Part shown: piece after piece, positions 39,374 to 45,457 of the stretch
Layout: each line of letters opens with the position of its first letter
Numbering within the stretch: position 1 is the first letter of the stretch
Source: Bacteroidia bacterium
GTDB lineage: Bacteria > Bacteroidota > Bacteroidia > J057
Direction: 5' to 3'
DNA length: 64,000 nucleotides
Assembly: GCA_030430205.1 (NCBI GenBank)
Contig: JAUIGE010000009.1
Coordinates: forward strand, 62,001-126,000
Program-made: the position numbers and the translations under genes
The notes under the pieces: generated by a model
Databases searched by the model: none
What the model saw: only the letters and a program-made list of their open reading frames with translations
Told to the model about the DNA's origin: nothing

Positions 39374-39694
39374 TTATTCGACATCTTTCAGCCTGGAAAT
39401 CCTTTCAGGATTCTGAGAAGTATGGAATACATCAAGGATGAAAATTTTTCCTCTATCTCCAACGATTTTGTAAATGATTCTATACTTTTTATCAAATACG
39501 GCTGAACGGTAAATTTTTTGGGTACTTCTCAATTCATGACATTCTGGATGAATAAATGGCATAGAACCAAGTCCATCTGCGAAGAATAGAAGCTTCTCTA
39601 TATAATTTACAGTTTTATCCGATGAATAACTTTTCAGGTAGGAAAATATTCTTTCAAGAGAATCCAGAGCATGCTGCGTCCACTCTATTTCCAT
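39374..39694 (-). CDS. ParE/RelE-type toxin of a type II toxin-antitoxin system
   Basis: A 106-residue ParE-like protein: IEWTQHALDSLERIFSYLKSYS is the usual N-terminal strand and helix, and the core KYRIIYKIVGDRGKIFILDVFHTSQNPERI carries the RIIY and FHTSQNP segments of the family. ParE toxins poison DNA gyrase, RelE toxins cut mRNA on ribosomes; the target is not decided here. It overlaps the upstream antitoxin gene by ten bases and its stop lies directly at the ade stop, convergent. Confidence 0.9.
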   Translation of the reverse strand: MEIEWTQHALDSLERIFSYLKSYSSDKTVNYIEKLLFFADGLGSMPFIHPECHELRSTQKIYRSAVFDKKYRIIYKIVGDRGKIFILDVFHTSQNPERISRLKDVE

Positions 39695-39933
39695 GATTTC
39701 ATCATTTCCCTGACCTGACTTGTGTTAAAGGTTTTTCCTTCGAGAATGTTTTTTTCGGCCTCCGCAATCCTTTCCAGAAATACATCCATTACCATAGGAT
39801 TAGAACCTGTTTCAGCTCCATTCTCCTCAACTTCTTCTATGCTCTCAACAATTGTTAATTTTTTGAGATAAGTTACCAGGGCTATTATTTCTTCCTGTCT
39901 CCCTGCTTTAAATTGAATTTTTAGACTCTTCAT
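39685..39933 (-). CDS. antitoxin of the ParE-type pair
   Basis: An 82-residue protein that precedes and overlaps the toxin gene, as type II antitoxins do. The N-terminus (MKSLKIQFKAGRQEEIIALVTYLKKLTIVESIEEVEE) could form a strand and helix, and the C-terminal part (MDVFLERIAEAEKNILEGKTFNTSQVREMMKSW) is the kind of amphipathic helix that wraps a ParE toxin. A DNA-binding motif of a known class is not obvious. Identification rests mainly on position and on the EGKTF-type end common in ParE antitoxins. Confidence 0.75.
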   Translation of the reverse strand: MKSLKIQFKAGRQEEIIALVTYLKKLTIVESIEEVEENGAETGSNPMVMDVFLERIAEAEKNILEGKTFNTSQVREMMKSWK

Positions 39934-40023: not shown

Positions 40024-41031
40024 ATGCAGGAAAAACTCATCAATACGCTTCAAAACAGCCCGCTTTGGCTGGGAATCGCTGTGAGTTGTATCCTATTGGC
40101 TGGTTTTTTCTTTTACTTTTACTTCAAAAATCAATTTTCGGGCAAACTTTCGGACATTCCCAGGGAGTTGCCTCCCCAATCCCTATCGCCCGCGGTATTG
40201 CGCTATATCTGGCGCAGAGGCTTTGATGCACAATGCCTGCTCGCAGGCATCCTGAGTGCAGTCATGAAAGACTGCTACCGTATCAAGTGGCGCAATGAAT
40301 CCTTTAGCATTTACCTGAATAAACTGGCCACCTTCGAGCGACTGAGCGGCGATGAGCGTGCAGCCCTTTCCTTCAACCGCAAATCCTACATCGAACGGCT
40401 GGGCATCGGCAAAAAGAAAAGCCGGTTTACCACCAGGGCTGAGGGTAGAATGCAAAGCTATATAGATGAAAATTACAGCCATTTCCTTTTCAAAAAGCAT
40501 CTCTTGATTTTGATAGGGTTGGGGTTTTCATTCTTTATCTCTATGGTACTTACCAAATCCTATACAGATATATCCCTGGACTTTGGTACAGGTTATTTCC
40601 TTTTTGTTATCCCATTATCCCTGGGCTTAATGGGAGGAGCCATTTATGCTCTTAAAATCAAAAACTGGGTCGCATTGCCCGTATGCCTGGCCTTTTCCTT
40701 TGTTGGTCTGGTTATGGCATATAATATAGAATCGTCCTCCGAATCTTTCTTATTTCTTCCCCTCATACCCTTGATCAGTATCAATTCTATCTTTTTTTTC
40801 AAACTTCCCAAAAGGAAGCCGGAAGGAGAAAAGCTCTTTATCGAGATAGAGGAGTTTCGCAATTTTCTTTCAGAAAGGGTAGAAAAAGACCAGTACTTTG
40901 AAAAAAGTGAGTATTACCTTATTCCCTATCTTGTAGCACTGGAAATTCCTTTTAAAAATGATGAATATTTCAACACCCTAATTAGCAACTCTCCTCACGA
41001 TATTGGCCAGTTACCGGAATTCCTGAGATAA
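40024..41031 (+). CDS. DUF2207-like membrane protein lacking the N-terminal ectodomain
   Basis: A 335-residue protein with a first membrane helix (residues 15-33) and a block of three or four helices near 160-260. The soluble segment (LSPAVLRYIWRRGFDAQCLLAGILSAVMKDCYRIKWRN) resembles the domain after the membrane helix in DUF2207 proteins, and the C-terminal FRNFLSERVEKDQYF plus YLIPYLVALEI segments also match that family. The large external domain normally found first is missing, so this is a shortened version. The function of the family is unknown. It converges on the large sensor-like gene with a gap of only four bases. Confidence 0.7.
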   Translation: MQEKLINTLQNSPLWLGIAVSCILLAGFFFYFYFKNQFSGKLSDIPRELPPQSLSPAVLRYIWRRGFDAQCLLAGILSAVMKDCYRIKWRNESFSIYLNKLATFERLSGDERAALSFNRKSYIERLGIGKKKSRFTTRAEGRMQSYIDENYSHFLFKKHLLILIGLGFSFFISMVLTKSYTDISLDFGTGYFLFVIPLSLGLMGGAIYALKIKNWVALPVCLAFSFVGLVMAYNIESSSESFLFLPLIPLISINSIFFFKLPKRKPEGEKLFIEIEEFRNFLSERVEKDQYFEKSEYYLIPYLVALEIPFKNDEYFNTLISNSPHDIGQLPEFLR

Positions 41032-41035
41032 AATA

Positions 41036-44000
41036 TTATTCCTCCTTCTTCCCCCGACTAAACATCTTCCCCAGGTTAAAACCAGTGACCAATTCTATGG
41101 CGCGATAGATCGCCGGCAAGCCTGCTGCTGCTGCAGTAATGAAGGCCGTTGAATTGCTCACGAGTTCTTCCTGTGTAATAAAGAGGAAACCCGCGAGGGT
41201 AAAGAGGATAATCATGATCGGGGTGCGTACCCTTCGCCATGTACTTTCCACATTGACTCTTTGCTCCATCTCCAGCGTATGCTCAGGCTTGGTAACGGTG
41301 AGGATATAGTTGCGAAAACTTCGGTTCATGACGCGGAGTTCTTCCCCATCATTGATGATTAAGCCCTTGCGTATCAATGTTTTAAGAGCCTGTATATTCC
41401 TTCCATTGACAAGCCCATCCTGGGCGAGGTCATAGAGAATGTATTGCTCTTCTTTGGAACTCGCCGTCCAGAGAATCTGGTAATAAAACTGTGCACGAAG
41501 CTCGATATCAAGGATGATGTCCTCTGGATCTATATCCCTTTTGCCCACATAAAGAACCTGCAATTCTGGATATAGATATCGGAGGAATGCGCCATGGCGG
41601 CACTCCTCCGCGAGAAGTGATTCGTGGATACCATTACCATAGGACAAAGGATCAGATTCGAATGGAAAATTAATCTTATAGAATCGACTGAGCGTCCTTG
41701 TCCAGCTTTCTAGTTCGTCTTCCAGGCGAAGTTTTTCATCGCCCTGAGCAACTCTGAGTTGCTGTTGGTACACCAGGATCAGATCAAAAGGATCAATAGA
41801 GGAAACCAGGAACACCTGCTTCCAATGATTCATTGCCAGGTGGATGATTTTCAATTTGAACTGGCATAATGCCATATCGCTGAGCTTGTGCTCAAAGTGA
41901 TTGAGGACTATAGGTAGATTCGATCTATCAGCTACTTTTTTCCCGCCGCCTGCCTCTGTTGTTTTCAAGTCCAGCTTTTCTTCTGTTTTTTCTACAAATT
42001 CCCAAAAAGACGCTTCATCATGAAAATCAGCAAAACTGACCCGCATGCGTCGCCCAAGGGTTTGTTTGTACTTGCTCCCCATAGCCCGGGGAGGGATAAT
42101 CATGAATACATTTTGCCCGGTCTGGTTGATGCTTTCTCTGACTTCTTCGTCAGAAGGGGATTTCATCTCCACTACGCTCTCAGCGAAAAGTCGCCTGATG
42201 GTGAAGTCAAGCAGCAGATAAATGAAGGCCAATAAGCCTACAAAAAGCAACCAGAATAGCACCCCTGCGGTGTGGCTGGGATTTGGCAAATCATAGTCAT
42301 GCAAGTGTGAGGTGAGCAGGGTACCATCATTGGAATTTTGATAGGTAAGGGTCTTTACCTTTCCCAAAGACGGGTTTTGGAGGAGCCCTTCCCCCTCCGT
42401 CCAATACCAACTGGTATCGGCATTGGCGGCCAGCCGAAGTTGGTTGGTGATTCGGACTTTTTCATCATATCGCGGTCGTATCCGCGAAAACAAGCTATCA
42501 TACAGGCTGTAAAAGCCATTGGAACGGGTGAGTTCTCCCGTCTCCAGGAAAGGATTAATCCATACACCGGACTCGTTGTTGCCGTTATGAATGGTGGCAT
42601 AATAGGATGGCGAATAAATGGATTGCAATTTAAGATGGTCCAATGCCCGGGTATCCATATTCAGCCCTAAATACAACTTATCAATCCATTGATTGTGTCT
42701 GGCAATGTCTTTGGATAATTGCACCTGGGTGTGCTTTATTTCCAGCTTGATCTCCCGGCTATAGGCGATGGAGTAGTATTTGATAGAGGGAAAAATACTG
42801 ATGATTCCCAGCCAACTTAACATGAATAAGCGATAACTTCTTCTGGGCGTCAGGACTTTCACGATCAGGCGAAAGGGCTTCCACAACAACTCAAGATAGC
42901 TTTCCGAATCTTCTTCATCTACCGGGCTCAGCCTGTAAATCATCATGGTAGCTCCGAGGCCAATGGCGATATGAATCAGTTGGAAAAAGAGGGTTTTCAG
43001 AAAATCCTCGGGAGCTAATGATGCCGTAATCAGGTTGAGGGCCAGCAATAGCACAACGGCAGAGGTCAGGAATCGATATTGATTTTGAACCCCCACTTGT
43101 TTTTCTACCGGAGAGGGATTGCGACTGAGGGAGAAATAGACCATCATAAAGGTATATATGTAGGCCAATCCAAACATATTGATAACCCCCAGGGCTTTTT
43201 GATCCGCGGAAAAAAGGTAGAGGACAATGAGGGTAATCACATTTGCAAGGAGCAAAACGCGGTAGGCAGTCGCATTGCCTTTGCGGGGCCGCAGCCAGCT
43301 GAAGAGGAAGTTTTCTCCTTTTAATCGCCGCCTTCTGGGGCTAAAAGCGATCATTTGGGCTACAATCGCCAGTCCAAACAAAAAGCTGATTATGATCAGT
43401 ACAAAGGTAAAAGTGATGACCTGCTCATGGGTATTTTCGTAAAAATCTTTTTCTTCAAAACTGACGATATACAGGGGGAGGCCCTCTATGGGTTCCATGA
43501 AAAAGTTATAGGGCTTGCCCTGATAATTGCCATCTATATAGAGGGAAGATCTGGCATAGATGGCTGCTTTCATGGGTTTGGCGGTACATTCTTCCAGAAA
43601 ATTTTCCTGGAGGTTTTTACTCTCGTCCGAGTGAAACCAGACGTCGCCATTTTCATCCATGATGCAAAACCCAAAACTATAAGGAACTACCGTTTCCACC
43701 ACCGAATAAAGCTTTGTAGCCAGAAAAATGATGCTTGCATCATCTTTTGCGCTTAGCTTGGATACAGCTGCAAGATTATCTCCGGTCGTCCGGGTAAGGA
43801 TGGATTCCAGCATAAACTCCCCTCCCGAAGGCAGCTTCCAGGATTCTCCATTCTTGAGCCGTTCGAGGTATTGCCTGCCAGAAATATCCACTTTTTCAGT
43901 AAGGCTTCGCCTCACAGTAAGTTCCTGTCCCAGCTTATCCTCCATATTTACCCAAAAAACATTGGCAAAGAAGGGGTAGTAATTGGGGTAAACCAGCGGA

Positions 44001-45457
44001 TGCGTAGGCTGATTGGTACGGGGATTAAAACTGGCCACTTCGGTATAATCTCCTTCAATAGAATCCGCCAAAGCATCATAGGCTTCCAGTTGGTCATAGA
44101 TCGTTTCCAACTCAGAGACAAAGGCATAAGAAATATCCTTTGACATATCTACCAATTGCGCTTTGCGCTCAATGGCATCTGGCCCATTAAAACGGTATAC
44201 ATCAAAGAGAAGCAGCACCAGAGCTGCCGAACCCAAAATGGCCGTTATCATAGACAAGACCACATCCGAAGTTCCTAATCTCTCATAATAGCTCAACAAC
44301 CTGAGTCTCAGGACTGGCAGCACCAGAAGTCCTATGAAAAGGATCAGGACCAAAATCAAAATCAGCAGGGTGGAAATGCGAAATTTTTCCCCATTGAAGC
44401 GCTCTACGCGCACCAGGCCACAGAGGATAATGGATTGATCTCCAAGCTCCATGGGCTGCAAATAGCAGTTGTACTTGGTCCCTACTATCTCAAGGGTGCG
44501 TAAGTTATTAGCCAAAAGGCCAAATATCTTATCGGTCAGGAGCAGGCTATCAGGCAGGGATTTTACCTGCATAGGGATTTCAGAAGTCTGAAAAATCACC
44601 TCTGCCTTTCGCCTGCCATCTTCACTGCCTTCTTCTAAAGAAAACAACAATAAATCATCATAGACATCTGTGCGAACAAGGCTCGCCATAAACTCTTTAA
44701 AGTTTTTGGTGAGATGAATTTCATAAGTGGGATCCCCTTTCTTGTTTTCAAGAGGAGTAGATTTATACCTAAGATGATGCGGAGAAGAGCCCTCACTTTT
44801 TATAAACCGCTTAGGTCTTCTTTCTCCATCAGAAGCTTTTGGCTTGATGGCTTTAATTTTGGCGGTCATCTTCAGCTCCTCGCTGAGTGATTTTTCAACC
44901 TGGTGAAAAGGGACCTTGCTCCCTTCTCCTTTGAGGCCCGCTACCTGAAAATACCCATCCCCTGCTTCAATCTGCTCTATGGATTTGATGGTGGGGCGGG
45001 GACTGGGGGGCGTAGGCAAAAATTGTTTATTATCCCTTGCCCAGGCGAGCAGGTATCGGTTCACATACTCCTGGGTATCAATGTTTTGTTGCAATACAGT
45101 AATATCCTGTCCCAAAGTATCCCGTACAAAGTTCTCGATGGAATCACGATACAGATACAGGTATTTGCTCAACTCTGCCTGATTACGGGAATCAGCCTGT
45201 TGGTTGTAATAATTTTTTACTTTTTCTTTAAAGCGCAATAAATCTCCGGGGAGGTTGTCCGCCACCCGCTTGAAGGTCTGGTCCTTTGCCTGAATATTAT
45301 GGTTGATTTGGGTAAGAATCCGAAAATTCCGTTCATGCAGCAAATCTTCGTTTTGTTGCACATAAATAAAATAATAGCCTCCCATGACCAGGGCAACAAT
45401 CGCAAGGGTGGAAAGACTGATAGTAAGGTTACGGCTATGTGAGTTGGATTTGGTCAT
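41036..45457 (-). CDS. large multi-domain membrane protein with Cache-like sensor region and degenerate NTPase-like module
   Basis: A 1473-residue membrane protein. A first helix (about 12-31) leads to an external region, then two helices (about 362-385, 402-420), a second external region (about 430-680) resembling a double Cache sensor, further helices (about 685-710, five in 740-900, one near 1060), a cytoplasmic part, and two C-terminal helices (about 1405-1460). The cytoplasmic part holds NVFMIIPPRAMGSKYKQ near 1116, which looks like a degenerate P-loop, VFLVSSIDPFDLI near 1215 in the position of a Walker B strand, and a winged-helix-like segment (TLIRKGLIINDGEELRVM) near 1350. No kinase, cyclase or HTH output is visible. 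The role is unknown; signal sensing with a non-catalytic STAND-like switch is an inference. Confidence 0.7.
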   Translation of the reverse strand: MTKSNSHSRNLTISLSTLAIVALVMGGYYFIYVQQNEDLLHERNFRILTQINHNIQAKDQTFKRVADNLPGDLLRFKEKVKNYYNQQADSRNQAELSKYLYLYRDSIENFVRDTLGQDITVLQQNIDTQEYVNRYLLAWARDNKQFLPTPPSPRPTIKSIEQIEAGDGYFQVAGLKGEGSKVPFHQVEKSLSEELKMTAKIKAIKPKASDGERRPKRFIKSEGSSPHHLRYKSTPLENKKGDPTYEIHLTKNFKEFMASLVRTDVYDDLLLFSLEEGSEDGRRKAEVIFQTSEIPMQVKSLPDSLLLTDKIFGLLANNLRTLEIVGTKYNCYLQPMELGDQSIILCGLVRVERFNGEKFRISTLLILILVLILFIGLLVLPVLRLRLLSYYERLGTSDVVLSMITAILGSAALVLLLFDVYRFNGPDAIERKAQLVDMSKDISYAFVSELETIYDQLEAYDALADSIEGDYTEVASFNPRTNQPTHPLVYPNYYPFFANVFWVNMEDKLGQELTVRRSLTEKVDISGRQYLERLKNGESWKLPSGGEFMLESILTRTTGDNLAAVSKLSAKDDASIIFLATKLYSVVETVVPYSFGFCIMDENGDVWFHSDESKNLQENFLEECTAKPMKAAIYARSSLYIDGNYQGKPYNFFMEPIEGLPLYIVSFEEKDFYENTHEQVITFTFVLIIISFLFGLAIVAQMIAFSPRRRRLKGENFLFSWLRPRKGNATAYRVLLLANVITLIVLYLFSADQKALGVINMFGLAYIYTFMMVYFSLSRNPSPVEKQVGVQNQYRFLTSAVVLLLALNLITASLAPEDFLKTLFFQLIHIAIGLGATMMIYRLSPVDEEDSESYLELLWKPFRLIVKVLTPRRSYRLFMLSWLGIISIFPSIKYYSIAYSREIKLEIKHTQVQLSKDIARHNQWIDKLYLGLNMDTRALDHLKLQSIYSPSYYATIHNGNNESGVWINPFLETGELTRSNGFYSLYDSLFSRIRPRYDEKVRITNQLRLAANADTSWYWTEGEGLLQNPSLGKVKTLTYQNSNDGTLLTSHLHDYDLPNPSHTAGVLFWLLFVGLLAFIYLLLDFTIRRLFAESVVEMKSPSDEEVRESINQTGQNVFMIIPPRAMGSKYKQTLGRRMRVSFADFHDEASFWEFVEKTEEKLDLKTTEAGGGKKVADRSNLPIVLNHFEHKLSDMALCQFKLKIIHLAMNHWKQVFLVSSIDPFDLILVYQQQLRVAQGDEKLRLEDELESWTRTLSRFYKINFPFESDPLSYGNGIHESLLAEECRHGAFLRYLYPELQVLYVGKRDIDPEDIILDIELRAQFYYQILWTASSKEEQYILYDLAQDGLVNGRNIQALKTLIRKGLIINDGEELRVMNRSFRNYILTVTKPEHTLEMEQRVNVESTWRRVRTPIMIILFTLAGFLFITQEELVSNSTAFITAAAAGLPAIYRAIELVTGFNLGKMFSRGKKEE

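Follow-up and report, generated by a model that had tools for sequence, protein, structure and literature searches.

A predicted dCache membrane receptor of Bacteroidota with a STAND-like cytoplasmic module that has lost its ATP-handling residues

What does a membrane receptor do with an NTPase-like module in which the P-loop has been overwritten? Proteins of the STAND family, including the NLRs, are textbook nucleotide switches, and a gene that seems to break this rule lies in a 64,000-nucleotide stretch of a Bacteroidia bacterium genome (assembly GCA_030430205.1, contig JAUIGE010000009.1, positions 62,001 to 126,000), here called the window. The gene, single-copy in its own 7.24 Mb genome, occupies window positions 41036-45457 on the minus strand, as do all parts of the receptor described below. 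An earlier note, made from the DNA letters alone, described its product as a 1473-residue membrane protein, and the open reading frame (ORF) is indeed intact, running uninterrupted from an ATG start for 1473 codons. Its translation and comparison with 44 full-length family members point to a receptor that combines a double Cache (dCache) sensor, 12 transmembrane (TM) segments and an inactive STAND-like module. We propose, with moderate confidence, that it is a nucleotide-independent STAND-type receptor of the inner membrane, in which a dCache input and a dead STAND module gate a partner protein.

The family signal emerged through relatives rather than from the window protein itself, which found no match when used as the sole query in a first scan of the genome contigs. 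The entry point was a homologue of 1579 amino acids in a second species of the same genus (genome G001), 46% identical to the window receptor. Further relatives, all from Bacteroidota, were gathered by profile searches and a genome scan. The 44 full-length members are about 1190-1580 residues long and occur in Sphingobacteriaceae (Pedobacter, Mucilaginibacter and Hufsiella), Chitinophagaceae (Ferruginibacter and Taibaiella), Dyadobacter, metagenome-assembled genomes of Cytophagales and Flammeovirgaceae, and Balneola-type bacteria such as Gracilimonas.

Judging by the alignment of these 44 sequences, the residues that handle ATP have been lost across the whole family. The former P-loop of the window protein spans residues 1120-1131 (IIPPRAMGSKYK; 42065..42100), aligns with GSPGSGKL-type relics in relatives and is flanked in the structural model by a strand (1116-1120) and a helix starting at residue 1128, so that the earlier placement of IIPPRAMGSK at the P-loop position agrees with both alignment and model. 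Where the Walker A signature GxxxxGK[ST] would be expected, the window protein has IIPPRAMGSKYK instead. An intact GK[S/T] is found at this position in none of the 44 members, 20 of which have GKL, two GKM and two GKK. The loop reads GSPGSGKL in Pedobacter and Mucilaginibacter and GLPGSGKL in Ferruginibacter, with more decayed variants in Dyadobacter (GLPGSSIL or GPWGSCIL), Flammeovirgaceae (SMPFAGAEDL) and the window protein (IPPRAMGSK). An apparent GTGGIGKS at residue 209 of the relative from locus L026 was rejected as a P-loop; it sits in an external region and likely arose by chance.

The Walker B motif has decayed as well. Its relic, PIVLNHFE (residues 1182-1189; 41891..41914), coincides with a model strand at 1182-1186 and aligns with VIVNHFEY, IIDHFEY and VLCLDYFD of relatives. 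The expected pattern, hhhhD[DE], is replaced by VLNHFE in the window protein, and the position of the aspartate is occupied by asparagine in 31 of 44 members and by aspartate in four. The earlier note had instead assigned VFLVSSIDP (residues 1215-1223; 41789..41815) to Walker B. The alignment and the order of the model strands (1116-1120, 1182-1186 and 1214-1219) rule this out: the segment aligns with IVIVSTVHP of relatives and corresponds to strand 4, the sensor-1 equivalent.

Could the module nevertheless remain a nucleotide-loaded STAND switch, one that still binds ATP or ADP although the Mg-coordinating Ser/Thr is gone, but cannot hydrolyse them, as in some tight-binding pseudoenzymes? The nucleotide-binding (NB) fold is kept, and members of the Pedobacter and Mucilaginibacter type retain GxPGSGK, including the lysine. 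The loop of the window genus, however, lacks the glycine pattern, the lysine is mostly gone in Dyadobacter, Cytophagales and Balneola-type members, and the Ser/Thr is gone in all 44; we regard such a switch as unlikely. Nor does the protein look like the degenerating remnant of a once active STAND receptor, devoid of any function of its own. Motif loss across the family does appear stepwise, as such decay would predict, but the ORF is intact at 1473 amino acids, the protein is full length in 44 members, and both the loop in its rewritten form and the winged helix behind it are strongly conserved, making this explanation highly improbable. The residues IPPRAMGSKYK (1121-1131) are identical over all 11 positions between the two members of the genus, against an average identity of 34% in the NB region. 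The loop therefore looks repurposed, as if kept unchanged for a task distinct from ordinary phosphate binding.

The cytoplasmic part is predicted to have the STAND layout of NB fold, helical domain and winged helix (residues 1101-1397; 41267..42157). The earlier note had proposed structure prediction as a check, and a model of residues 1090-1473 (15 sequences; predicted local distance difference test score, pLDDT, of 75.7) contains the P-loop-type fold in question, with strands alternating with helices, then a helical part and then a winged helix. Its best fold match is the plant NLR WRR4A (9qlv; Z 11.1, 245 residues aligned, model residues 12-308), followed by 2qen, a STAND-type ATPase from an archaeon (Z 11.0, 256 aligned), RPP1 (Z 10.8) and CED-4 (Z 8.8). 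A Z below 8 may mean merely a common arrangement, but the NLR and 2qen values exceed 8 and these matches extend over the entire span from NB fold to winged helix. Foldseek returned 2fna (2.2e-4) and Avs4 (3.4e-4), as well as ORC subunits. While the window protein has no Pfam nSTAND, NACHT or NB-ARC match above cut-off, a weak nSTAND1 match in the L025 relative (0.014, with 15.5 bits where the cut-off is 27.1) spans the region from P-loop to strand 4. Model, fold matches and the 44 relatives thus support a STAND-like cytoplasmic part with a lost P-loop, as first suspected. No catalytic domain, kinase or other, was recognised in the relatives scanned, and neither of the two findings that the earlier note had named as counting against its reading turned up.

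The winged helix (residues 1326-1390; 41288..41482) is the best-conserved part of the family, with a mean majority-residue fraction of 0.70 compared with 0.27-0.53 elsewhere, and is followed by a TM hairpin that ends the protein, matching the winged-helix-like unit and two last helices described from the letters. Such conservation might be taken to indicate a membrane-bound transcription regulator of the ToxR/CadC kind, whose winged helix binds DNA, and a PAS-LuxR-like gene (so labelled by reading) adjoins four of the Mucilaginibacter loci. Yet the winged helix occupies the place of the STAND winged-helix domain, behind the NB and helical domains, with the membrane hairpin directly after it, and in NLR and Apaf-1 structures this domain is regulatory rather than DNA-binding. 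DNA binding by the receptor is accordingly a rather improbable explanation of the conserved domain.

When the C-terminal module was used to query 395 genomes of the phylum, no other architecture and no relative with an intact P-loop came to light, the hunt for an active relative being confined to Bacteroidota. Those of the weak additional matches that were inspected came from an ABC protein, enzymes of sugar metabolism, a P-type ATPase and an isolated hairpin fragment.

On the input side, the second external region is predicted to be a dCache sensor (residues 425-678; 43424..44185), which makes more specific the earlier description of this region as Cache-like. The window protein itself has no Pfam dCache_1 match. 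Three relatives do (L056, 1.5e-10; L059, 5.5e-8; L028, 6.8e-7), all below the curated cut-off of 45 bits, and a fourth matches marginally. A model of the sensor region (residues 28-1095, 39 sequences, predicted TM-score 0.70, pLDDT 69.1) matches 3lif with Z 15.8 and a root-mean-square deviation of 3.3 over 224 aligned residues, model positions 398-651 corresponding to residues ~425-678. Other dCache matches are PctB (Z 14.8; Foldseek E 6.4e-6), PctA (Z 14.6) and DctB (Z 14.0), and the matches to amino-acid chemoreceptors and histidine-kinase sensors as a whole span Z 12-16. Model and hydropathy together give the usual dCache layout, a long helix and two PAS-like subdomains flanked by TM3 and TM4. 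Domains of this type usually sense small molecules.

The topology was derived from family-averaged hydropathy. It gives 12 hydrophobic segments, centred on residues 22, 374, 412, 696, 743, 767, 804, 831, 886, 1074, 1419 and 1445, in keeping with the roughly twelve helices estimated earlier. With the N-terminus taken to be inside, the module (residues 1086-1407) and the C-terminus would be cytoplasmic and residues 34-362, 424-684 and 898-1062 would lie outside, the external location of the dCache domain following from hydropathy only. There would thus be three external regions and not two, residues 898-1062 having been missed before. TM1 (residues 11-33; 45359..45427) precedes external region 1 (residues 34-362; 44372..45358), which is poorly conserved and in the model comprises a long helix followed by about five strands or a small sheet, with low model confidence over much of residues 90-245. 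TM2 and TM3 (residues 363-423; 44189..44371) are 67% identical to those of the same-genus relative and lead into the dCache domain. Beyond it lie TM4 to TM8 (residues 685-842; 42932..43405), TM9 (residues 875-897; 42767..42835), external region 3 (residues 898-1062; 42272..42766), modelled as a long helix accompanied by a small sheet, and TM10 (residues 1063-1085; 42203..42271). After the STAND-like module the chain ends in the hairpin TM11-TM12 (residues 1408-1456; 41090..41236; conservation 0.52). External regions 1 and 3 each start with a long helix, as dCache does, and may be further sensor domains.

The earlier note saw no output domain. Within the protein itself this remains correct, yet a phospholipase gene adjoins the receptor gene in some relatives. 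When flanking genes were clustered over 45 receptor loci, a lipase gene lay directly beside the receptor in nine, the sole recurrent adjacent function. A patatin gene of one subtype (A) immediately precedes the receptor gene on the same strand in L025, L062, L063, L064 and L073 (Pedobacter/Mucilaginibacter), about 10-18 bp from the receptor or, in the L025 locus of Pedobacter sp. Leaf194, with a small ORF overlap. A second subtype (B) holds this position in L057 and L058. A Tle1-like lipase gene adjoins the receptor on its upstream side in L026 and on its downstream side in L056, and in L022 one lies at a distance of ~6 kb. These enzymes belong to PF01734 (patatin) or PF09994 (Tle1-like), the patatins retaining the DGGG and GTSTG/NSGGS motifs and both Tle1-like proteins GFSRG. 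In 11 genomes counted, there were 26 patatin and five Tle1-like matches (about 2.4 and 0.45 per genome), and G637 and G266 each have a single Tle1-like gene, located next to the receptor. About 0.05 adjacent lipases would be expected by chance in 45 loci, compared with the nine observed; even four independent adjacency events would give P ~1e-7 (computed for 37 loci). In part of the family, a neighbouring phospholipase is probably the partner of the receptor and may be its trans output.

The family itself is accessory and patchy in distribution. In the order of the window species the gene is present in two of 22 genomes, both species of one genus, and a phylum sample gave matches in nine of 395 (about 2%), two of them marginal; plasmid searches found a Persicobacter fragment only. 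The survey of neighbours across Saprospiria that the earlier note had suggested is too narrow in scope, the order offering just the two members of the genus while other groups carry the gene, and no constant partner gene was found among the neighbours across the family.

Patchiness of this kind, together with the likeness to Avs4 and NLRs and the relationship of neighbouring patatins to phospholipase effectors in PADLOC (both of the two compared match them), would suit a defence receptor: an NLR- or Avs-like membrane immune sensor that frees a phospholipase, so that the cell is killed or stalled in response to phage or envelope attack. Several observations argue otherwise. Against the PADLOC models the window protein scored at best 0.09 (Cas1f, noise), and the relatives at best 4.9e-5, for one N-terminal stretch of the L022 protein; this HEC-02B match (residues 10-106) was not counted as evidence. 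The window has no defence-island neighbours, dCache domains usually respond to small molecules, and patatins may also serve ordinary lipid turnover. A role in defence consequently seems unlikely to us.

For the nucleotide-independent receptor that we favour, the following mechanism can be envisaged. A ligand would bind the periplasmic dCache domain, and movement of the helices would carry the signal through the membrane to the STAND-like module, tethered at both ends. Lacking normal Mg-nucleotide binding, the module could act as a nucleotide-independent shape-change relay or as a docking platform, the former P-loop perhaps serving anew as a contact or ligand loop. For part of the family, a cytosolic phospholipase (patatin or Tle1-like) encoded next door would probably be the partner. 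The sequence, hydropathy topology, relatives, motif losses, predicted folds and gene neighbourhoods are the observations behind this scheme, from which we infer ligand binding, the direction of signalling, partner docking and lipase control. A bolder version, in which the family forms a class of transmembrane, nucleotide-free STAND receptors, ligand-gated and NLR-like, whose dead module uses the rewritten P-loop as a binding site of its own and converts the external dCache signal into activation of other partners or of phospholipases with unrelated folds, is possible but distinctly more tentative.

A number of points weigh against the favoured interpretation. Alone, the window protein matches no family in Pfam, PADLOC, NCBIfam or PDB sequences, and the confidence of both models is only moderate (pLDDT 75.7 for the cytoplasmic part and 69.1 for the sensor region). 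An adjacent lipase is confined to nine of 45 loci, and the tree requires several gains or losses of the lipase labels, so the independence of these events is only partly resolved. The window locus and that of its genus relative have no adjacent lipase, the window species' genome has no Tle1-like match, and its three patatin matches lie elsewhere, in frames of 654, 303 and 768 amino acids (the last below the Pfam cut-off). Since no lipase gene stands beside its receptor, lipase control cannot be claimed for the window species.

How new is such a protein? The earlier note called it a type not described, which is mostly fair for the combination of dCache sensor, multiple TM segments and inactive STAND module; inactive STANDs and Cache sensors are each already known. 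A catalysis-dead STAND, iSTAND, was described in 2020 in MoxR-vWA ternary conflict systems (Kaur et al., PMC7159879). Like the present module, it is a STAND domain without catalysis and occurs in Bacteroidota, and some iSTAND systems act near the membrane. By description, however, iSTAND joins MoxR and vWA as the third member of an operon and carries effector or death-like domains at its N-terminus (PMC7159879), whereas the module described here has a 10-TM dCache receptor fused ahead of it and a C-terminal TM hairpin behind it. A reading of the gene lists showed no MoxR AAA+ or vWA genes in the window or among the relatives' neighbours. STAND/NLR ATPases (plant NLRs, CED-4, 2qen, 2fna and Avs4) share the same layout (Z 9-11) but use P-loop and Walker B, both lost in this family, in which membrane helices flank the module at both ends. 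From the other side, the PctA and PctB chemoreceptors, DctB and other histidine kinases have the same external dCache domain between two TM helices (Z 14-16). The outputs listed in a 2016 survey of Cache receptors comprise methyl-accepting chemotaxis proteins, histidine kinases, cyclic di-GMP enzymes, serine phosphatases, cyclases, Ser/Thr kinases, transcription factors and ion channels, with no STAND or AAA output among them (PMC4822843). The lipases beside nine relatives' receptors are of the same families as the CapV-type patatins of cyclic oligonucleotide-based antiphage signalling systems (CBASS) and Tle1-like lipases (PF09994). Unlike in CBASS, no CD-NTase cyclase is evident beside them (by reading of the gene lists), and the window locus lacks the lipase genes altogether. 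Our literature search found no paper describing a Cache sensor and an inactive STAND in one membrane protein.

If the proposal is correct, a widespread family that has kept the fold and conserved the winged helix while losing the ATP machinery would indicate that a STAND fold can signal by shape alone. Fusion to a standard ligand sensor would provide a case with controllable input, and the lipase neighbours suggest an assayable output. A type of output would also be added to Cache receptors beyond those of the 2016 survey (PMC4822843).

The neighbours of the receptor gene in the window are ordinary, encoding an adenine deaminase, a DUF2207_C membrane protein, an upstream imidazolonepropionase and an MlaD-like protein (the last two labels assigned by reading). 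The imidazolonepropionase gene is also upstream of the receptor in G001 (78% identity over 143 amino acids), so the locus looks vertically inherited within the genus. The DUF2207_C-type gene (40024-41031, plus strand) converges on the receptor gene with 4 bp between their ends; none was seen beside the receptors of relatives in their gene neighbourhoods. Near the receptor, and separate from it, are a ParE-like toxin gene (5.5e-12) and a small upstream ORF, antitoxin-like in appearance (39374-39932, minus strand).

Other genes recur around the receptors of relatives (coordinates are those of each locus). A small cassette of a lipoprotein-like gene and a gene for a 110-residue helical protein, often with an amidase or GH19 enzyme, lies upstream in L058 (4888-6542), L064 (664-1544), L073 (638-1476) and L081 (383-1863). 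A role in lysis or in envelope remodelling is conceivable for it; a reading that joins lipoprotein, helical protein, amidase or GH19 enzyme, lipase and receptor into one lysis cassette suits some loci only and was not adopted. A gene for a membrane protein without a Pfam match recurs upstream, three to four genes away from the receptor, in L025 (4328-5572) and L056 (4659-5843), with similar pieces in L063 and L070. The PAS-LuxR-like regulator gene is directly downstream on the opposite strand in L063 (7237-7962), L064 (7199-7924), L065 (7197-7922) and L073 (7199-7924), and a homologue (L106, 11729-12457) is located near a different patatin in G637. Finally, a 62-residue ORF in G195 (L114, 1522-1710) encodes the family's C-terminal membrane hairpin alone and is perhaps a gene remnant.

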